Shown piece after piece: positions 32,374 to 48,559 of a DNA stretch of 64,000 bases; the first letter of the stretch is position 1; each line of letters begins with the position of its first letter. This DNA is from Streptomyces sp. NBC_01237 (GTDB lineage Bacteria > Actinomycetota > Actinomycetes > Streptomycetales > Streptomycetaceae). A program made the translations under genes and the position numbers. Under the pieces are notes generated by a model. The model was not told where the DNA came from. It searched no databases and saw only the letters and a program-made list of their open reading frames with translations. The DNA is taken from the NCBI RefSeq assembly GCF_035917275.1, contig NZ_CP108510.1, positions 62,001 to 126,000 on the forward strand, given 5' to 3'.

Positions 32374-33111
32374 TCACGACCCGGACGAGGCGCTGATATC
32401 CCGGAACTCCGCCTGGGCGTCCTCGGTGTAGGCACCCATGCTGCCCGAGGTGTACGGCCGTTCCCGGTCGGTGAAATCGGCCACTTCGCGGCCGTCCACC
32501 GCCACCGTCATCCGCGCACCGCGCTGCCGGATCCGTACCTCTGACCAGTCACCGACCGGGAAGCCGGGCATACCGGTGGCGAGGAACCGCTGTCCGCCTC
32601 GGTATTCGGGGTCCCGTTTGCCCAGTTCCCAGCCATTGGGCTTGAGTGCCAGATAGTAGAAGTGCTCCGGGTCGTCGTAGGACCAGACCAGCCACGCCAC
32701 CTCCCACGGGTTGGGGTCGGGCTCGCGCAACTGCTCGGCGGTACGTATCCGGGCGCGGTAGTCCAGCACGCCGTACCGGGTTGTGGAGATGACCAGACAG
32801 GCGTGGGTACGGTCTTGTTCACGGGCCGTGCGCGGAGTGAGCGTCAGCGCGTCCACCGTGCCGGTATTGGCGCCGTAGCCGTGGAAGACGGACTGCCAGG
32901 GGCCGTACACCATGCCGTCCTGCCAGGACTCGACCGAGTCGGTGCCGTGCCCCTCCTCCCGGAGCAGTGCCGTGACCAGGCCGGTGCTCACCACGACAAG
33001 GACGGCCAGCAGCAGCCCGCTGGTCCGGCGGTAGGAGCGCCACAACATGCGCAAACGGTACCGCCGGACCATCCATGCCGCGTGGGCCGTCCGGGGCCGG
33101 TACGCGGTCAT
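32374..33111 (-). CDS. Membrane-anchored jelly-roll (LamG/DUF1080-like) protein of polysaccharide locus
   Basis: 245 residues, starting at ATG 33111 inside the epimerase stop (ATGA overlap), so translationally coupled to it. A basic N-terminus and one helix (TSGLLLAVLVVVSTGLVTAL, about 31-50) place the rest outside the membrane. The outer domain is a concanavalin-like jelly roll: YRARIRTAEQLREPDPNPWE, VAWLVWSYDDPEHFYYLALK, EVRIRQRGARMTVAVDGREV and TSGSMGAYTEDAQAEFRDIS. Such domains bind or process carbohydrate. Inferred role: binding the exported polymer at the cell surface. Confidence 0.75.
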   Translation of the reverse strand: MTAYRPRTAHAAWMVRRYRLRMLWRSYRRTSGLLLAVLVVVSTGLVTALLREEGHGTDSVESWQDGMVYGPWQSVFHGYGANTGTVDALTLTPRTAREQDRTHACLVISTTRYGVLDYRARIRTAEQLREPDPNPWEVAWLVWSYDDPEHFYYLALKPNGWELGKRDPEYRGGQRFLATGMPGFPVGDWSEVRIRQRGARMTVAVDGREVADFTDRERPYTSGSMGAYTEDAQAEFRDISASSGS

Positions 33112-34385
33112 CCCGCCCCGCGTTCGTCGTCGCCCGGTGCCTCGTGCCTGCCGTCGGTGGGCGGCGTCCTCTGCCCGTGAATGACGGCCGGGGTGCCGCC
33201 GAAGTCCCTGGTGAGGCGTGCCACGATGCGGTCGGCCGCATGTCCGTCGCCGAACGGGTTGGCGACCGCCGACATCCTCCGGTACTCCTCCGGGTCGTCC
33301 AGCAGCCGCACTGCGGCGGTCAGGATCTCCTCCGGGTCGGTGCCCACCAGCCGGGCCGCCCCCGCCTCCACCGCCTCCGGCCGTTCGGTGGTGGACCGCA
33401 GCACCAGCGTCGGCTTGCCCAGGCTCGGGGCCTCCTCCTGGAGCCCGCCGGAGTCGGTCATCACCAGGTCGCAGGCGGCGAGAGTGGCGGCGAAGTCCAG
33501 ATAGTCCAGCGGATCCACCACCGAGATCCCGGGGTGACCCTCCAGTGCCGGCAGCAGTGCCTCCCGTACCGCCGGACTGCGGTGCAGCGGGAGCACGATC
33601 TCCACGTCTCCCCGGTCGGCCAGCCGCCGGAGCGCCGCACCCATGGAGCGCATCCGGTCACCCTGGTTCTCCCGGCGGTGCAGGGTGAGGAGCACCCGTC
33701 GCCCATCGGTGCGGAAGGCGCTCCGCCCGGCACCCCGCTCCAGCACCCACAGCAGGTTGTCGACGACCGTGTTGCCGGTGGTGATCACCTGTCCGTCGGG
33801 GACGCCCTCGGCCCGCAGATGGCCGGCGGACCGTGCGGTGGGGGCGAAGTGCCAGTTCGCGAGGCGGCCGATCAGCCGGCGGTTCAGCTCCTCGGGGAAG
33901 GGATTGTCCGGGATACCGGTGCGCAGCCCCGCCTCGACATGGGCCACCGGGATGTGTTCGTAGAAGGCGGCGAGAGCGCCGCAGAGTGCCGTGGTGGTGT
34001 CGCCCTGGACCACCACCAGATCCGGCCGTTCGGTTCGGATGACCGTGCCCAGGCCATCGATCAGACGGGCGGTCAGCTCGGAGAGCCGCTGCCGGTCCCG
34101 CATCACCGCCAGGTCGGTCTTCACTCCCACTTCGAGCAGGCCGAGCATCTGTTGGAGCATTTCCCGGTGCTGGCCGGTGGTCACCACCATCGGCTGGAAG
34201 AGCGGGGAGGCGGACATCGCCCGGCTGACCGGGGCCAGTTTGATTGCCTCCGGGCGGGTGCCGAGGACCAGCATGGCGCGCACCGTGCCGGGGGCAGCGG
34301 CGGAGTGCTCCGGGGCGTCCCCGGCCGGGTGCGGCGCGGACGCGTTGTCCACGGGTGATAACAGCGGGTTCTCCGATGAGGACAT
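33108..34385 (-). CDS. wecB: UDP-N-acetylglucosamine 2-epimerase (non-hydrolysing)
   Basis: 425 residues from ATG 34385 (GGGAGAG upstream). It interconverts UDP-GlcNAc and UDP-ManNAc. The GT-B fold motifs are all visible: MLVLGTRPEAIKLAPVSRAM, TTGQHREMLQQML, LVVVQGDTTTALCGALAAFY, VAHVEAGLRTGIPDNPFPEE, LNRRLIGRLANWHFAPT and, in the C-terminal domain, LLTLHRRENQG and CDLVMTDSGGLQEEAPSLGK with RSTTERPEAVEAG. The N-terminal 30 residues are an extra low-complexity tail. It lies between the family 2 glycosyltransferase and the jelly-roll gene, so UDP-ManNAc or UDP-GlcNAc is the likely donor for the polymer. Confidence 0.92.
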   Translation of the reverse strand: MSSSENPLLSPVDNASAPHPAGDAPEHSAAAPGTVRAMLVLGTRPEAIKLAPVSRAMSASPLFQPMVVTTGQHREMLQQMLGLLEVGVKTDLAVMRDRQRLSELTARLIDGLGTVIRTERPDLVVVQGDTTTALCGALAAFYEHIPVAHVEAGLRTGIPDNPFPEELNRRLIGRLANWHFAPTARSAGHLRAEGVPDGQVITTGNTVVDNLLWVLERGAGRSAFRTDGRRVLLTLHRRENQGDRMRSMGAALRRLADRGDVEIVLPLHRSPAVREALLPALEGHPGISVVDPLDYLDFAATLAACDLVMTDSGGLQEEAPSLGKPTLVLRSTTERPEAVEAGAARLVGTDPEEILTAAVRLLDDPEEYRRMSAVANPFGDGHAADRIVARLTRDFGGTPAVIHGQRTPPTDGRHEAPGDDERGAG

Positions 34386-34590
34386 GGCTCTCCCTTGACG
34401 AGACAAACGGAAGGAGCAGGAGCGGTTCGTCGGGCGGCACCGGCGGCGCGTACAACACCGGCGTACGGGCGGGCCGGTGGCGGTACGGACGGGTCGCACT
34501 GCGGTGCGGTCGCGCGGATGGTACGGGTGGGACCCTGAGCGGCGTGGATCGTACGCGAGTGGTACGGGTGAAACCTTGAACCGACGCGGG

Positions 34591-35832
34591 TCAGCTGCGG
34601 GCTGTCTTCAGCCAGGTTCGCTTACCGGTGACGGTCCGCCAGAGCCCCATCCAGCCGGCGGCGAACCAGATGTAGCCATAGATGATGAAGACATGCCCGA
34701 GCAGTACCGCCTGGATCGCGGTGAGCGACCGCTCGCGCACCCGGTACACGAAGCCGTAGATCCAGGCCGAGGTGAACGAGAGCAGATACGGGCCGAGGAA
34801 CCACATGACGGAGACCAGCGGACGGCCCGCCCTGATCGATCCGGCGATCGTGCCGAGGAGCGCGACCAGGAACGAGAGGGGCAGGAGCGAGGTGAGCAGG
34901 ATCAGCACCGGGCTGGACAGATGGTAGATCAGGTCCATCGCCGCCCGGCCCCCGACATCGCGGAGTATCAGCGGGGTCAGGTTGGCCGACTGGAGATGTC
35001 CCTGGAACCAGCGTGACCGCTGGCGGATCAGTCGGCGCACTTCGAGGACGGCCTGCTGGGAGACGGCCGCCGTGGTGCAGTGCTGGTTGGTCCAGCCACG
35101 GGCGATCAGCCGGACCCCCAGGTCCAGATCCTCGGTGAGACTGTCGCTCCACGGATCCTCGCCCAGGGTGTCGAGCGCGGACAGGCGCATGAACTGGCCG
35201 TTGCCGCCCATGCCCACGCTGCCGATGAAACGGCGGGCGCTCTGGAACACATCGCCGTAGACGACGAACTCCATGTCCTGGAGCCGGGCCAGCAGCCCCT
35301 CCCGCCGGTTGTACATCCGGACACCGATCTGGGTTGCGCCGGTCGCCGGATCGTTGAAGAACGGGTCGACGGCGTCGATCACGTGCCCGTCCAGCCGGCC
35401 GTCCGCGTCCACGACGCAGAGGATCACATCGTTCGGGTTCCGGCCCTGGAGAAGCGGTGACGCACGCAGCAGTCGTACGCCGTCGTTGAGCGCGGCGCCC
35501 TTCCCGCGCCGGGCGTTCGGCAGATAGCGCTGGTGGAGCCAGACCCGCTGGGGATCGGCGGCCCGCGCGATATCGGCCGTTCGGTCGTCGGAGGCGTCGT
35601 CGATGACCAGGGCGACACATTTCTCGGCCGGCAGAGCGGTGATCCGCGCAAGGCTCTCAGCCAGCACTATCTCCTCATTGAGGCAGGCCAGAAGGAAAAC
35701 ATAGAATCTTTGTTCGCCCTTGTCGGGTCGGTGCGGCACCTTGCGACGGGAGAGCAGGAACAGGCTGAAATTGTAGGTGCCGGCCAACACGATCAACGCA
35801 ATGCTGGCCCATATCAGGGACTCAACGATCAC
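34591..35832 (-). CDS. Processive family 2 glycosyltransferase, membrane
   Basis: 413 residues from GTG 35832, which overlaps the stop of the upstream small gene (GTGA). One N-terminal helix (SLIWASIALIVLAGTYNFSL) is followed by a GT-A domain with the processive signature: VALVIDDASDDRTADIARAA, CVVDADGRLDGHVIDAVDPF, SLTEDLDLGVRLIARGWTNQ and the QRSRW motif (RQRSRWFQGHLQ). About five helices follow (LTSLLPLSFLVALLGTIAGS, LGPYLLSFTSAWIYGFVY, LGHVFIIYGYIWFAAGWMGL). These are features of NodC, PgaC and hyaluronan synthase-type polymerases that make and export a polysaccharide. The neighbouring epimerase suggests a hexosamine donor. Confidence 0.88.
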   Translation of the reverse strand: MIVESLIWASIALIVLAGTYNFSLFLLSRRKVPHRPDKGEQRFYVFLLACLNEEIVLAESLARITALPAEKCVALVIDDASDDRTADIARAADPQRVWLHQRYLPNARRGKGAALNDGVRLLRASPLLQGRNPNDVILCVVDADGRLDGHVIDAVDPFFNDPATGATQIGVRMYNRREGLLARLQDMEFVVYGDVFQSARRFIGSVGMGGNGQFMRLSALDTLGEDPWSDSLTEDLDLGVRLIARGWTNQHCTTAAVSQQAVLEVRRLIRQRSRWFQGHLQSANLTPLILRDVGGRAAMDLIYHLSSPVLILLTSLLPLSFLVALLGTIAGSIRAGRPLVSVMWFLGPYLLSFTSAWIYGFVYRVRERSLTAIQAVLLGHVFIIYGYIWFAAGWMGLWRTVTGKRTWLKTARS

Positions 35833-36071
35833 GATCCGTTCTCCGCGGCCCAACCCCGGCGCCCAGCGGCGGCGGCATCGGTCACGGAGGGCCTGACACG
35901 TAATCGCAAACGCGCCACGAACAGGCCGAGAACAACCAGAAGATACAAGAGGAATCCCGCCCCCGCGGTCGCCTGCAAAGCACTGGCCACCGGGCTCCCG
36001 GGTATCTCCTCCATGGACGCGGCCAGCCCCACCAAGGGCAGCGCTGACCCCAACGCAGACCTACCGTACAT
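35829..36071 (-). CDS. Small single-helix membrane protein of polysaccharide locus
   Basis: 80 residues from ATG 36071, with a G-rich ribosome site. The N-terminal region contains a moderately hydrophobic stretch (SALPLVGLAASMEEI); a strong helix lies at about 37-56 (GAGFLLYLLVVLGLFVARLR), followed by a basic cytoplasmic tail. It is coupled to the glycosyltransferase by a 4-base overlap, which suggests a synthase subunit, much as small PgaD-like partners assist PgaC. No sequence family recognised. Confidence 0.65.
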   Translation of the reverse strand: MYGRSALGSALPLVGLAASMEEIPGSPVASALQATAGAGFLLYLLVVLGLFVARLRLRVRPSVTDAAAAGRRGWAAENGS

Positions 36072-36401
36072 CGGTTCCCCCCACCTTCAGCTCGGCGCAG
36101 GAGTGGTTGGCACGTCCCCAAACGGAACCGGCCCCTGCGCGCTTACGGAAAGTACCAGAAGCGGCCCCGCAAGTGGTTCTTCGGCGGAAAACCTGGACCT
36201 TGATCTTTCACCGGAGTGCCCATTGACATCCGAAGGGAATGGAGCGAACAATCCCGGCTGTTGAGCTTCGCAATCCGCTCGTGGAATTCCATGAAGGACC
36301 GAGTCATGGCTCTTGTGTCGCGAATCAGCCATGTCTCTTTCTCCTTCCTGCGCCCAGTTCCACGTCAAGCGACGCGGTACCCAAATCGAGGGGGTAAACA
36401 A
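36072..36401. promoter_or_regulatory. Divergent promoter region of the polysaccharide locus
   Basis: This 330-bp gap separates the synthase operon (minus) from the deacetylase/hydrolase genes (plus) and must hold both promoters. An open frame from 36216 reads into the plus-strand gene, but its codons are unlike those of the gene. No clear operator was found. Confidence 0.5.
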
Positions 36402-38249
36402 ATGAGACAACCCAGGAGTAGACCACAGCCGGCCTGGCTGGCTTTGATCGCCCTGGCCGTCGCCGCTCTGCTGGGGGGCAGCCTGCTGGCACCGGCGGCC
36501 GTCGCCGGCGGCCGGGGGGACGGCGACCACCATTCGGTGACTCAGGAATCGCCCATCGGCGTTCAGGCCAAGGACCTGAAGGGCTGGGCCGCGGCACAGC
36601 GGTCCGGTGACGCCGAGCGGCGGGCGGAGAAGGGCACGAAGAAGCGCGCGGGCAAACTGCTACCGCGGCTGACCAGGGCCATCGGGCCGAAGGCGCGCAA
36701 CGCACCGGCCGCTCCCGAGCCCGGCCAGGCAAAGACGCTGGTCCTGTACGACAACGCGGGCCCGTTCGGACACCTCGGCGAGCTGTACGCGATGGGCGTG
36801 GCCAACCTCGGAGGCCGGTTCGGCACCGTGACCGCCAAGCCGGTCCAGAACTACGTATCGGGTGAGCTGGAGACCTTCGACGCCACCGTCTACGTGGGCT
36901 CCACCTACTACGGCGACGACATACCGGACGCGGTGCCGCAGGATCTCTATCTGGACATCCTGCTCTCCGAGCGGCCGGTGATCTGGATGGGCGAGAACAT
37001 CTGGAACATGGCCAACTCGATCAGCCTGCAGGAGTTCGAGTACAAGTACGGCTGGGACCCGACGTCCTCGTTCTACGAAACCGGCGGCAGCGTAGGCGAC
37101 ATCACCAAGGTCCAGTACAGGGGCCAGACACTGACCCGGAAGATCCCGGCCGGGCAGGACGCGGGCGTGCTCCACCCCGTCATCAGTACCAGCACGGACG
37201 CCCCGCCGGTGACCGAGCTCGCCACGGCGGTGGACACCGCGGGTGCCACCGAGACGGCCTTCCCGTGGGCGATCCGCTCGGCCAACCTGACCTACCTCGG
37301 CGAGATCCCCTTCACCTTCGTCTCGGAGACCGACCGGATCATCGCCTTCCAGGACCTGCTCTTCGACGCGCTGGCACCGGCGACGGCCGAGCAGCACCGT
37401 GCCCTGGTGCGCCTGGAGGACATCTCCCCGATGTCCAACGCGACCCAGCTCCGTTCGATCGCCGACTATCTGAAGTCGCAGAACATCCAGTACGGCATCA
37501 ATGTCATCCCGGTGTACACCGACCCCAAGGGCGTGCAGAACAACGGTGTGGCGCGCACGGTGCGGCTCGCGCAGCGGCCCGCGCTGGTGAACACGCTGAA
37601 GTACATGCTCGCCAACGGGGCCGTGCTGATGGACCACGGCTACACCCATCAGTACGGCAACCTGGACAACCCGTACAACGGACTCAGCGCCAGTGACTTC
37701 GAGTTCTTCAAGGCCCATGTGGACGCCAACGACTTCGTGGTCTACGACGGGCCGGTGGCGGAGGACTCCACCACCTGGGCACAGGGCCGGATCACCTCCG
37801 CCCTCAACGAGTTCGCCGCGGTCGGCCTGCCCAAGCCCAAGCTGTGGACCACCCCGCACTACGCGGCCTCGGCCACCGACTACAAGGTGTTCGCGCAGAA
37901 CTTCGACGCACGGCTGGAGCGTTCGCTGTACTTCGCCGGGACGCTGACCGGCGCGCCGGTCGACAGCACCCGCTACCTGGGCCAGTTCTTCCCGTACCCG
38001 GTCACCGATGTCTACGGCACCAAGGTGCTCCCGGAGAACATCGGCAGCTATGAGCCGCTGGCCTCCAACAACAACCCGCCCCGGCTGGCCGAGGACCTGA
38101 TCAAGAGCGCCAAGGCCAACCTGGCGGTACGGGACGGCTTCGCCAGTTTCTACTACCACCCGACCCACCCGGTGGCTCCGTTGAAGGAGATCGTGGACGG
38201 CTTCACGGCACTCGGCTACACCTTCGTCAACCCCGAGAGTCTGCTCTGA
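36402..38249 (+). CDS. Secreted DUF2334 polysaccharide deacetylase-like protein
   Basis: 615 residues from ATG 36402, with GAGGGGG upstream. Signal peptide: AWLALIALAVAALLGGSLLA ending PAAVAG. After a charged linker, an N-terminal alpha/beta domain reads KTLVLYDNAGPFGHLGELYA and VYVGSTYYGDDIPDAVPQDL. The second half is a NodB-fold DUF2334 domain: LVRLEDISPMSNATQLRSIA supplies the metal-binding aspartate, NGAVLMDHGYTHQYGNLDNP the HGxTH-type motif, and GLPKPKLWTTPHYAASATDY the late histidine; the end is FYYHPTHPVAPLKEIVDGFT. Such enzymes remove acetyl groups from extracellular polysaccharide. Being divergent from the synthase operon, it probably modifies the same polymer. Confidence 0.85.
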   Translation: MRQPRSRPQPAWLALIALAVAALLGGSLLAPAAVAGGRGDGDHHSVTQESPIGVQAKDLKGWAAAQRSGDAERRAEKGTKKRAGKLLPRLTRAIGPKARNAPAAPEPGQAKTLVLYDNAGPFGHLGELYAMGVANLGGRFGTVTAKPVQNYVSGELETFDATVYVGSTYYGDDIPDAVPQDLYLDILLSERPVIWMGENIWNMANSISLQEFEYKYGWDPTSSFYETGGSVGDITKVQYRGQTLTRKIPAGQDAGVLHPVISTSTDAPPVTELATAVDTAGATETAFPWAIRSANLTYLGEIPFTFVSETDRIIAFQDLLFDALAPATAEQHRALVRLEDISPMSNATQLRSIADYLKSQNIQYGINVIPVYTDPKGVQNNGVARTVRLAQRPALVNTLKYMLANGAVLMDHGYTHQYGNLDNPYNGLSASDFEFFKAHVDANDFVVYDGPVAEDSTTWAQGRITSALNEFAAVGLPKPKLWTTPHYAASATDYKVFAQNFDARLERSLYFAGTLTGAPVDSTRYLGQFFPYPVTDVYGTKVLPENIGSYEPLASNNNPPRLAEDLIKSAKANLAVRDGFASFYYHPTHPVAPLKEIVDGFTALGYTFVNPESLL

Positions 38250-38355
38250 CCCACCCTGTCCCAGAGCACCGTCCCCGCCGTTACCGGTCCGCCCCGCGCG
38301 GGCCGGGAACGGCGCACGTCCTGCGGGCTGCGGCCCGGGAAAGGCCCCTCCCCTG

Positions 38356-39387
38356 ATGCGAACACCGCGGCGGACGACGGTGGTGGCGACGGCCGCCGCC
38401 CTCGCGATACTGAGCGGATGCACGACCGGCGGCGGGGACGGCCCGCGCCCCCCGCGCTCCGGTGACCGGATACGCGGAATCACCCTGCCCGCGTGGGACG
38501 TCGACGACTACGGCCGGCCGGAGGCCCGGCGCTATCTGCGGCAGATCGCCCGCACCGGCGCCCGATGGGTGGTCTTCACCCCGACCTGGTACCAGGACGG
38601 GACGGACCGGTCCGCCATGCACACCACCGTGGAGACGGCGAGCGACCGCAGTCTGCGCCGGATCATCGCCCTGGCCCACGAGGCTGGACTGAAGGTGCTG
38701 CTCAAACCGCATGTGGATCTGACCGACGGCGGGGACCGCGCGGCGATCCGCCCGGCGGACCCGGATGCGTGGTTCACCGCGTACCAGCGGTTCATCACCC
38801 ATTACGCCGCGCTGGCGGCGGAATCGGAGGTGGCGCAGTTCGCCGTCGGCACCGAATTGGCCGGCACCTCCGGCGACCGGCCCCGCTGGACCCGGGTGAT
38901 CAAGGCGGTGCGCGAGGTCTACCGGGGCACCCTGACCTACGCCGCCAACTACGACGAGTACCACCGGATCCCGTTCTGGACCTCGCTCGACCTGATCGGC
39001 ATCGACGCGTACTGGCCACTGGCCGAATCCGCCACGGCCGATCCCGCGCGGCTGGCCAAGGGCTGGAAACCGATCGTCACCGAACTCACCGCGTTCGCGG
39101 CCCGGCACCAGCGCCGCATCCTCTTCACCGAGGCGGGCTATACGAGCCAGCACGGCACCGCCGCGGAACCGTACTCCTGGACGATCAGCGAACACGCCGG
39201 GGCGGAGGAACAGTCGGCGGCCTATCAGGCTCTGCTCACCGCCTTCGACGGCAAGGACTGGTGGGCCGGGGTCTGCTGGTGGATGTGGGACGACTGGCCG
39301 GAAAGCGGGGAGACCGCGCGGGAGCTCGCGTACACACCTCGTGGGAAACCGGCGGAGAAGGTGCTGCGACGGTGGTGGCGGAAGTGA
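38356..39387 (+). CDS. GH113-like glycoside hydrolase lipoprotein
   Basis: 343 residues, 106 bases after the deacetylase-like gene and on the same strand. A lipoprotein signal (VVATAAALAILSGC, lipobox cysteine at 22) anchors it outside the membrane. The TIM-barrel reads RGITLPAWDVDDYGRPEARR, GARWVVFTPTWYQDGTDRSA, GLKVLLKPHVDLTDGGDRAA, the acid/base segment QFAVGTELAGTSGDRPRWTR, LIGIDAYWPLAES, the nucleophile segment ILFTEAGYTSQHGTAAEPYS and GVCWWMWDDWPESGE. This is the pattern of GH113 beta-mannanase-like enzymes. It may trim or release the product of the locus; a mannosamine-containing polymer would fit a mannan-like cleft, which is inference. Confidence 0.85.
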   Translation: MRTPRRTTVVATAAALAILSGCTTGGGDGPRPPRSGDRIRGITLPAWDVDDYGRPEARRYLRQIARTGARWVVFTPTWYQDGTDRSAMHTTVETASDRSLRRIIALAHEAGLKVLLKPHVDLTDGGDRAAIRPADPDAWFTAYQRFITHYAALAAESEVAQFAVGTELAGTSGDRPRWTRVIKAVREVYRGTLTYAANYDEYHRIPFWTSLDLIGIDAYWPLAESATADPARLAKGWKPIVTELTAFAARHQRRILFTEAGYTSQHGTAAEPYSWTISEHAGAEEQSAAYQALLTAFDGKDWWAGVCWWMWDDWPESGETARELAYTPRGKPAEKVLRRWWRK

Positions 39388-43707: not shown

Positions 43708-44235
43708 ATGACCAGCGATCTCGGATTCCTCTGCTCGTACTGTGGGGCGCACCACCCTGAGCTCCCCATGAACTACACGGCCGAGGCCCCGGCCGTGTGG
43801 GATCCGGCCTTCGCTGACGCGGACGACTGCCTGCTCTCATCCGACCAGTGCGTGATCCGGGCACAGCACTACTTCGTCAAGGGTCTGATCGAGATACCGG
43901 TCGTCGGCAGCGACGAGGTGTTTTCCTGGACTGTGTGGGTCTCGCTCAGTCGTGAGAACTTCTCCCGCGCGGCGGACTTGTGGGACACCACCGGACGAGA
44001 AGCGGAGGAGCCCTACTTCGGCTGGCTCACTACTGACCTCTCGGCCTACACGCCCACGACTCTCAACTTGAAGACCCACGTCCACACCCGCCCGGTCGGC
44101 GAGCGCCCCCTCGTCGAACTCGAACCCACCGACCACCCCATCGCCGTCGAACAACGCACGGGAATCACCCGGGACCGCGTAAGGGAGATTGCCGCGACGG
44201 TGCTTCACCCCTCCCGGTACAGGAACCAGCCGTGA
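43708..44235 (+). CDS. DUF2199 protein
   Basis: 175 residues from ATG 43708. DUF2199 signatures: the zinc-ribbon start FLCSYCGAHHPELPMNYTAE, LLSSDQCVIRAQHYFVKGLI, EIPVVGSDEVFSWTVWVSLS and YFGWLTTDLSAYTPTTLNLK with THVHTRPVGERPLVELEPTD HPIAVEQ type. Members are cytosolic and of unknown biochemistry; many occur near toxin-immunity loci. It overlaps the next gene by 4 bases (GTGA), so both form an operon. Confidence 0.82.
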   Translation: MTSDLGFLCSYCGAHHPELPMNYTAEAPAVWDPAFADADDCLLSSDQCVIRAQHYFVKGLIEIPVVGSDEVFSWTVWVSLSRENFSRAADLWDTTGREAEEPYFGWLTTDLSAYTPTTLNLKTHVHTRPVGERPLVELEPTDHPIAVEQRTGITRDRVREIAATVLHPSRYRNQP

Positions 44236-47653: not shown

Positions 47654-48559
47654 TCAGCCTGCCAGTCGGGCGAGGGCCAGGGCGTGCGCGTGGTCGAGGG
47701 AATCAGCAGCAGCGCAGGAGATGTCCGGCTGTACACCGGTGCCCTCCCAGTTCGTGTGGGAGACGGGGTTGATGGCGCGGCCAAAGGGGATGGTGGCTTC
47801 CAGGTGTGGGTGCACGGTCCAGCCCTTGCACGGGTGTGCGCCGCCGCGGGTGCGCTCGCCGACGACTATGGCACGGCCGAGCTGCTGAAGGTCGTACGCA
47901 AGTTCTTCGGCCGCAGAGAAGGTGCTGTCACTGGACAGCACATACAACGGCTTGCTACCGCCGAAGCGCGCTCCAGGGACGTGCGGCAGGCTCCAGGACT
48001 GCTCACTGCGCTCGCCGCCGCGCCAGTACATGGTGTTGAGATGCGTGCGCTCGTCCAGTAGGTAGCTGCAGACAAAGGCGACCGTGTCCGGGTCGCCGCC
48101 CCGGTTGCCTCGAAGGTCCACGATCAGCGCCTGGGCGCGGGAGGCAAGGGTGAGCGCGGCGCTCAACGGTTCGGCGGCCCACTCCAGCGGAAACAGCATC
48201 GGTGCCAGCTCCACCACGGCGACCCCTCCGTCGAGCAACTGCACCCGGGGCGCACCGCCCAGTGAGGTGTCGAAGTCCCGGCGCATGGCGTCCCGGGTGG
48301 CCGCCCCCTGTTTCGGGGACACCGGGTCGGCGTGATGCTTGAGTCTCAGGTGTCGGTCGCTGTTGACGGACTGCAGGTCCGCGGTGACCAGCCGGGCGAG
48401 GTCCTCGGCGTCATCGACGTCGTAGGCGCCCTCGCCGAGGCGTCGTTGCAACAGGCCGGCGAGCTGTTCGGCTATCTCGGGGAAGACGTAGTGCTCGATC
48501 AGGAGCCGGGCTGTCTCGTCGATGACAGGGGCCGACGGAAGCTTTGTGGGAGTCGTCAT
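47654..48559 (-). CDS. S41-family peptidase
   Basis: 301 residues from ATG 48559. S41 (C-terminal processing peptidase/IRBP-like) signatures: the helical N-terminal part EHYVFPEIAEQLAGLLQRRL, LTADLQSVNSDRHLRLKH-type, then AQALIVDLRGNRGGDPDTVA, PLYVLSSDSTFSAAEELAYD (nucleophilic serine expected in SSDSTFSAAEE) and IVVGERTRGGAHPCKGWTV. The end reads GTGVQPDISCAAADSLDHAH. No signal peptide, so it may act in the cytosol. It is divergent from an ArsR regulator across a 57-bp gap and probably controlled by it. No good ribosome site is seen. Confidence 0.85.
   Translation of the reverse strand: MTTPTKLPSAPVIDETARLLIEHYVFPEIAEQLAGLLQRRLGEGAYDVDDAEDLARLVTADLQSVNSDRHLRLKHHADPVSPKQGAATRDAMRRDFDTSLGGAPRVQLLDGGVAVVELAPMLFPLEWAAEPLSAALTLASRAQALIVDLRGNRGGDPDTVAFVCSYLLDERTHLNTMYWRGGERSEQSWSLPHVPGARFGGSKPLYVLSSDSTFSAAEELAYDLQQLGRAIVVGERTRGGAHPCKGWTVHPHLEATIPFGRAINPVSHTNWEGTGVQPDISCAAADSLDHAHALALARLAG

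Follow-up and report, generated by a model that had tools for sequence, protein, structure and literature searches.

What do the six genes at positions 32374 to 39387 of the window make? By the window we mean the whole stretch of DNA that was analysed, 64,000 nucleotides of Streptomyces sp. NBC_01237 (contig NZ_CP108510.1, positions 62,001 to 126,000); this contig (C3, 316,404 bp) is one of the 4 that make up the 10.19 Mb genome. A first-pass annotation had proposed that this locus makes and remodels an exopolysaccharide. The answer that we prefer, with a probability of roughly 60%, is a synthase-dependent exopolysaccharide system that is fed by UDP-N-acetylmannosamine (UDP-ManNAc) and whose polymer is deacetylated, cut, and retained. 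The parts and their logic are of known kinds, but the combination, its wide conservation, and its link to miniproteins were not found in the literature searched. (Among the papers listed, no title or opening of an abstract pointed to this cassette, in a search that subscription journals largely fell outside.)

Gene content of the locus

The six genes are split between two arms that diverge. On the minus strand, the left arm encodes a tiny membrane protein, a family 2 glycosyltransferase (GT2), an epimerase, and a PF06439 protein, and the right arm (plus strand) encodes a DUF2334 protein and a GH113 lipoprotein. The end of the tiny gene overlaps the start of the GT2 gene by 4 bases, and the epimerase and PF06439 genes also overlap by 4 bases. 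With families assigned by Pfam and NCBIfam profile matches, the features are (GlcNAc, N-acetylglucosamine; aa, amino acids):

32374..33111, minus strand: membrane-anchored CBM66-fold protein, 245 aa, PF06439 by sequence; probable polymer binder
33108..34385, minus strand: non-hydrolysing (WecB-type) UDP-GlcNAc 2-epimerase, 425 aa (TIGR00236)
34591..35832, minus strand: processive GT2, 413 aa, GTG start (PF13641 and PF13632, above cut-off)
35829..36071, minus strand: tiny membrane protein with a single transmembrane (TM) segment, 80 aa (conserved in place by tblastn)
36072..36401, no strand: divergent intergenic region, likely promoters for both arms, from its position between diverging genes
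36402..38249, plus strand: exported DUF2334 protein, 615 aa (PF10096); predicted to be a CE4-like deacetylase that also has an N-terminal alpha/beta domain
38356..39387, plus strand: GH113 lipoprotein, predicted endo-beta-mannanase-type hydrolase, 343 aa (PF22612)

As first described, then, the six-gene set is present and intact: all six frames are open and the family matches are over their cut-offs.

By its motifs, the GT2 is a processive synthase. D78 D79, D142-x-D144, E234 D235, and Q271-x-x-R274-W275, which we take to be the D, DxD, ED, and QxxRW motifs of processive synthases, are present in all 104 aligned rows (the window's row is included and identical rows were left unmerged). The closest named model is the XrtP-associated transferase NF053846, but the match of 269.5 bits is under the cut-off of 520. 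The second-best NCBIfam match, to PgaC/IcaA (TIGR03937), is at 65.1 bits against a cut-off of 422.3.

The epimerase matches TIGR00236 at 440.9 bits (cut-off 210.15), its closest homologs in the PDB are UDP-GlcNAc 2-epimerases (5dld and 5enz, ~1e-101), and 13 conserved residues, presumably those of the active site, are retained in 94 to 98 of 98 rows. By family model and residues, it is a non-hydrolysing UDP-GlcNAc 2-epimerase of the WecB/MnaA kind. One other WecB-type epimerase is encoded in this genome, on the main contig beside a distant GT2 (G000:C1:2809509-2811988, locus L039).

The DUF2334 protein (PF10096, 187.9 bits, cut-off 26) matches only DUF2334 in Pfam, not a NodB-type family. Residues E339, D340, H416, P485-H486-Y487, and E545 are found in all 85 rows, and H412 and H586 in 82 of them. 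We read E339-D340, H412-x3-H416, P485-H486-Y487, and H586 as the motifs of a CE4 deacetylase, so that a D-H-H triad and a base are predicted; the correspondence is our assumption from the order of the motifs, alongside fold hits. Specifically, a structure model (predicted local distance difference test, pLDDT, only 63) had Foldseek hits that included the CE4 deacetylases 7fbw, 2c1g, and 6h8l. It also matched flavodoxin-like and amidotransferase folds, which are taken to be the N-terminal domain.

The GH113 protein (PF22612, 197.5 bits, cut-off 27) begins with a lipobox-like LSGC, and one solved relative is the endo-beta-1,4-mannanase 4cd6 (112 bits). Glu167 and Glu259, which from the alignment to 4cd6 we take to be the catalytic pair, are present in 42 of 42 rows. 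By the profile and both glutamates it is a GH113 protein, and mannanase-type activity is predicted. All of the solved relatives that we found are beta-1,4-mannanases, and action on beta-1,4-mannan would fit a mannose-configured backbone.

The PF06439 protein has an N-terminal helix followed by a CBM66 fold, its best fold match (18% identity to 4azz). The first-pass annotation had a membrane-anchored jelly-roll protein here, which holds, and the CBM66 fold now makes a binding protein likelier than an enzyme. For the same reason we set aside activity as a 3-keto-disaccharide hydrolase. Thus processive motifs, a predicted supply of UDP-ManNAc, a deacetylase-like protein, a hydrolase, and a sugar-binding fold bear out the original gene identities and exopolysaccharide logic.

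Conservation and core of the cassette

Conserved gene linkage had been set in advance as a test of the proposal. Of 199 Streptomyces genomes searched, 13 besides the window's genome have a GT2 that is at least 73% identical, and all 13 of these loci carry all five large genes, with DUF2334 and GT2 on opposite strands. Each also has a tblastn match to the tiny gene at the same place. In another genome, G006, these five genes all point the same way, and the GT2 is only 43% identical. DUF2334 matches above 150 bits are confined to the cassette and to 15 of the 199 genomes (the window's genome, the 13, and G006); the next match is at 88 bits. GH113 matches above 180 bits number 16, of which 15 are in cassettes and the other (in G073) is at a contig edge. 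The recurrence of the gene set is far beyond chance, and the proposal withstood this test of linkage.

Core linkage extends more widely. In a scan of named genomes with the GT2 alignment, we retained the best 80 of 166 relatives, chosen by GT2 alone (several duplicate genomes of the other set, with identical GT2 rows). Gene content was scored by six-frame profile scans within 8 kb of the GT2; as some loci end at contig ends, the counts are lower bounds. Among these 80 loci, the epimerase was found in 75, DUF2334 in 67, PF06439 in 45, GH113 in 27, and all five genes in 26; in two loci the GT2 was alone. GT2, epimerase, and DUF2334 make up the core, which is common to loci from Streptomyces, Kitasatospora, Actinomadura, Kocuria, Corynebacterium, Arthrobacter, and Actinoplanes; Kitasatospora aureofaciens (L082) is one carrier. 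GH113, which had been put forward as a core component, is an accessory in Streptomyces and a few relatives. Where all three core genes are present (64 loci), they come in seven different orders or orientations. With the other genes added, the arrangements include:

divergent GH113-DUF2334 / GT2-epimerase-PF06439: 23 loci
GT2-epimerase-DUF2334: 18 loci, mostly Actinoplanes kin
GT2-PF06439-epimerase-DUF2334: 8 loci (Kocuria, Arthrobacter, Actinobaculum)
GT2-PF06439-DUF2334-epimerase: 2 loci (Corynebacterium)
DUF2334-GH113-GT2-epimerase-PF06439: L091 (further orders exist)

A quick GT2 tree with weak deep forks needs a minimum of 4 changes for GH113 and of 6 for each of the epimerase, DUF2334, and PF06439.

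Two further searches started from DUF2334 or PF06439. In a class-wide draw of 296 genomes, 11 others had DUF2334 matches above 150 bits, and in 9 of these a GT2 lies within 5 kb. (Of the remaining two matches, one lies close to where its contig begins, and the other is on a different contig from that genome's best GT2 match.) A profile of the PF06439 protein matched 7 of 396 genomes from the phylum, and 4 of the 7, including the window's, have cassette genes alongside. We dropped L054 and L055, whose matches are weak, and L056, where the match is part of a giant protein; the other cassette genes are absent from all three. L051 and L053 each encode a fusion protein that combines DUF2334 with PF06439.

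Several loci have further features. A long hydrophobic protein is encoded between the epimerase and DUF2334 genes in L051 (8752-9720; no Pfam match) and L052 (9110-10039). PAS and GGDEF-EAL proteins adjoin the cassette in L053 (6987-9031), which hints at control by cyclic di-GMP (c-di-GMP). Kocuria rosea (L081) has two tandem copies of the GT2, PF06439, epimerase, and DUF2334 genes, and a tandem pair of DUF2334 genes lies beside a single GT2 in L139, L140, and L142.

In the 36 Streptomyces-type loci, the DUF2334 match is 167-634 bases from the tiny gene. The divergent intergenic regions of 32 distinct Streptomyces-type loci gave no loose match to a BldD-like consensus (0.6 expected in shuffles). 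The first-pass annotation had described the surrounding DNA as decayed. In a light check of this, 10 flanking open reading frames (ORFs) in the window were compared with Pfam: 5 had a family match at E 0.01, which in 3 cases exceeded the family's cut-off. The flanking genes include those for a DUF2199 protein (43708-44235) and a peptidase S41 protein (47654-48559). A plasmid collection held no near-identical copies of the cassette, so nothing marks it as a known plasmid module.

The tiny membrane protein

The first-pass annotation had the tiny protein as a coupled membrane partner in a system analogous to Pga/Ica, which would make it a counterpart of PgaD/IcaD. The gene is there and overlaps the GT2 gene, but its likeness to PgaD/IcaD gains no support: the protein has no Pfam or NCBIfam match, and hence no PgaD/IcaD homology by these libraries. 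Instead, it looks like a degenerate relative of miniproteins that consist almost entirely of a sorting signal of the sortase type (LPVTG, LAFTG); LPVTG occurs in Dactylosporangium or Planosporangium relatives. With LQATAG ahead of its TM segment, the window protein does not qualify as a sortase substrate (LPxTG or LAxTG, a TM segment, and a basic tail), while its likely relatives do. At the like place, Streptomyces proteins mostly have LQATAG or LQEAAG, Actinomadura has LQITG, and L139 has LMVTG.

We scanned 103 loci (1.83 Mb) for tails that resemble sorting signals and found 15. Seven are at most 250 bases upstream of the GT2 on the same strand, 4 are elsewhere in the cluster (L058, L059, L062, and L072), and the remaining 4 are at other places or on the opposite strand. 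The miniproteins upstream of the GT2, with LPxTG/LAxTG-type signals, are those of L101, L104, L108, L109, L110, L112, and L129. Among 15 further loci, L148 to L150 have such a miniprotein ~0.7-0.8 kb upstream of the GT2, and 7 of the 9 that bear DUF2334 have a small hydrophobic ORF directly before it. The NCBIfam model for LAXTG small proteins matched 4 of these miniproteins below its cut-off, and the LPXTG anchor model matched that of L148 just above its cut-off (16.8 versus 15.9).

Some of these miniproteins come with an exosortase-family gene. It lies between the miniprotein and the GT2 in L148, L150, and L103 (PF09721, 28.0, 25.9, and 34.0 bits; cut-off 25.7); a profile built from these three matched one in L149; and a weaker one follows the GT2 in L129 (PF09721, 16.3 bits; TIGR04178, 32.3 bits, cut-off 23). 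These five loci, with an exosortase, an LAxTG/LPxTG-type miniprotein, and a sister GT2, do not have DUF2334. The window's genome has 13 sortase-family matches and no exosortase match.

The position before the GT2 is also favored by tiny ORFs in general. A first filter found them before the GT2 in 44 of 103 loci, before the epimerase in 4 of 97, and before DUF2334 in 3 of 84. A looser filter gave 53 of 103, 25 of 97, and 2 of 84, with 3 of 62 for PF06439 and 0 of 41 for GH113; the 25 before the epimerase probably begin inside the GT2 gene that often precedes it, within the hydrophobic end of that gene. Hydrophobic miniproteins that start with MY occur within 1 kb upstream of the GT2 in 30 of 118 loci, where 0.15 would be expected from the rest of the loci, by a rule that was chosen after inspecting the proteins. 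These hits comprise 18 of 36 Streptomyces-type loci and 12 of 82 others. (The test has a ribosome-site filter, and some of the Streptomyces-type loci that it missed do show MYG.) Many loci, including the Actinoplanes group, show no such ORF in either the tiny-ORF or the MY-start scans.

Proposed mechanism

From family membership, conserved catalytic residues, and genetic linkage, which the sequences give directly, we infer every biochemical step, the role of the tiny protein included, as well as the sugar and its linkage. We propose that the epimerase would convert UDP-GlcNAc to UDP-ManNAc. The membrane GT2, with its tiny partner, would polymerise ManNAc (or ManNAc with GlcNAc) and extrude a beta-linked chain. 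The exported DUF2334 protein would strip some of the N-acetyl groups, the GH113 lipoprotein would cleave chains outside the cell, and the membrane-anchored CBM66-fold protein would bind the polymer and retain it at the cell surface. A beta-1,4-ManNAc chemistry is suggested by the GH113 family and by analogy to the Pss polymer of Listeria.

Several observations weigh against this proposal. First, the support comes from genes and sequence, and the chemistry is a prediction. Second, gene content varies: of the 80 named loci, 53 have no GH113 and 35 no PF06439, no epimerase lies within 8 kb of the GT2 in 5, and in 10 the GT2 has the epimerase as its only partner. Third, the nearest model for the GT2 is XrtP-associated (though under its cut-off), so its product might be something other than a long free polymer. 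Fourth, the DUF2334 structure model is weak, a profile of this family had no match to PDB sequences at E 0.1, and in the Acidithrix-type loci L057, L058, and L059 a Glu replaces His412 and an Asp replaces His586, both changed together. Finally, Pfam searches of the six proteins at E 0.1 found no BcsB or GGDEF protein in the cassette, unlike Pss.

Alternative explanations

Could the polymer be GlcNAc or a GlcNAc/ManNAc mixture, with the epimerase balancing or mixing the two donors? Non-hydrolysing epimerases of the WecB/MnaA family run both ways, and PgaC/IcaA is the second-best NCBIfam match of the GT2. However, that match is far under its cut-off, the cassette contains a hydrolase of a beta-mannanase family, and in 75 of 80 loci the GT2 has the epimerase nearby. 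We consider this alternative unlikely, though it deserves to be taken seriously.

In a variant of our proposal, a poly-ManNAc chain would be tethered or primed by the miniprotein, of sortase/exosortase derivation, and retained by the system's own membrane-anchored binder. This idea is tentative, and we think it rather unlikely as it stands. If true, it would define a distinct class of synthase-dependent glycan that joins exosortase-type loci to Pss-like polymer chemistry.

Another possibility is a short glycan, assembled by the GT2 on either a lipid or the tiny miniprotein, which would give an exosortase- or sortase-linked glycoconjugate and no free exopolysaccharide. This would account for the recurrence of LPxTG/LAxTG-type miniproteins beside this GT2 family, for the exosortase-family genes beside sister GT2s, and for the XrtP-associated model being the best named one. 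It seems distinctly unlikely because QxxRW and the other processive-synthase motifs are invariant; because a deacetylase-like protein, an endo-type hydrolase, and a binding fold suit a polymer; and because the window's genome has no exosortase match and the motif is degenerate in Streptomyces.

Lastly, divergent transcription in the window could mean that a glycan synthesis operon merely adjoins an unrelated mannan-degradation pair, but the linkage data make this very unlikely, as the genes run in a single direction in L035, L091, and L093, loci of the Actinoplanes and Kocuria groups have DUF2334 downstream of the GT2 on its strand, and no DUF2334 match above 150 bits occurs without the GT2 in the 199 Streptomyces genomes.

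Comparison with known systems

The PgaABCD/IcaABCD systems for poly-N-acetylglucosamine (PNAG) share with our proposed ManNAc-fed system a processive GT2 with a small membrane partner and the logic of polymerase, deacetylase, and hydrolase. To this extent the Pga/Ica analogy of the first-pass annotation stands; the synthase differs, with a PgaC/IcaA match of 65 bits versus a cut-off of 422. Also, the deacetylase-like protein is of the DUF2334 family, and the epimerase and the CBM66-fold protein are additional.

MatAB, for PNAG, is a glycan locus described in the literature for Streptomyces aggregation. It likewise combines a glycan synthase with a deacetylase, but MatB is described as a single protein with NodB-like and PgaC-like domains (PMC4391728), while the window cassette keeps the two functions in separate proteins of other families. 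The locus is distinct from matAB in this respect, as had been claimed. If a second synthase locus is conserved alongside it, pelleting, adhesion, and matrix would become open to genetic work in actinobacteria from industry and the environment.

The XrtP/XrtR/XrtS exosortase loci have a GT2 of the same superfamily, and sister lineages of the window GT2 pair an LAxTG-type miniprotein with an exosortase-family gene. In contrast, the window GT2 is under the NF053846 cut-off, its genome has no exosortase match, and DUF2334, GH113, and PF06439 are added.

A DUF2334 match is also present in Bacillus subtilis, presumably to ydaL of the five-gene ydaJKLMN operon, in which we take YdaM to be a GT2 and YdaN is BcsB-like. 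This operon is not known to have an epimerase or PF06439 gene. It is described as an exopolysaccharide (EPS) operon that encodes a putative glycosyl hydrolase, EPS enzymes, and, as a difference from the window cassette, the c-di-GMP receptor YdaK (PMC13274460, PMC7064775). Our proposal would give the DUF2334 family a testable function.

The Listeria Pss system (pssA-E, PssZ) also has a GT2 synthase, a matching hydrolase, and a surface-bound polymer. Its hydrolase PssZ belongs to GH8, whereas that of the window is a GH113 enzyme, for which we propose a biosynthetic rather than a degradative role. The window cassette itself also holds the epimerase, deacetylase-like, and binding-fold genes. Pss is described as having a GGDEF receptor that is degenerate, along with a protein like BcsB (PMC4125290); the six window proteins have no Pfam match to either, so by these two markers the cassette does not class with the Pss/Yda type. 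The Pss polymer is reported to be beta-1,4-ManNAc with alpha-1,6-galactose branches; loss of sortase frees it, and an anchored lectin is postulated but not identified in that account (PMC11439720). The CBM66-fold protein may be the counterpart of that lectin in logic, rather than a demonstrated homolog, and so offers a gene-linked candidate for this kind of polymer-holding protein.

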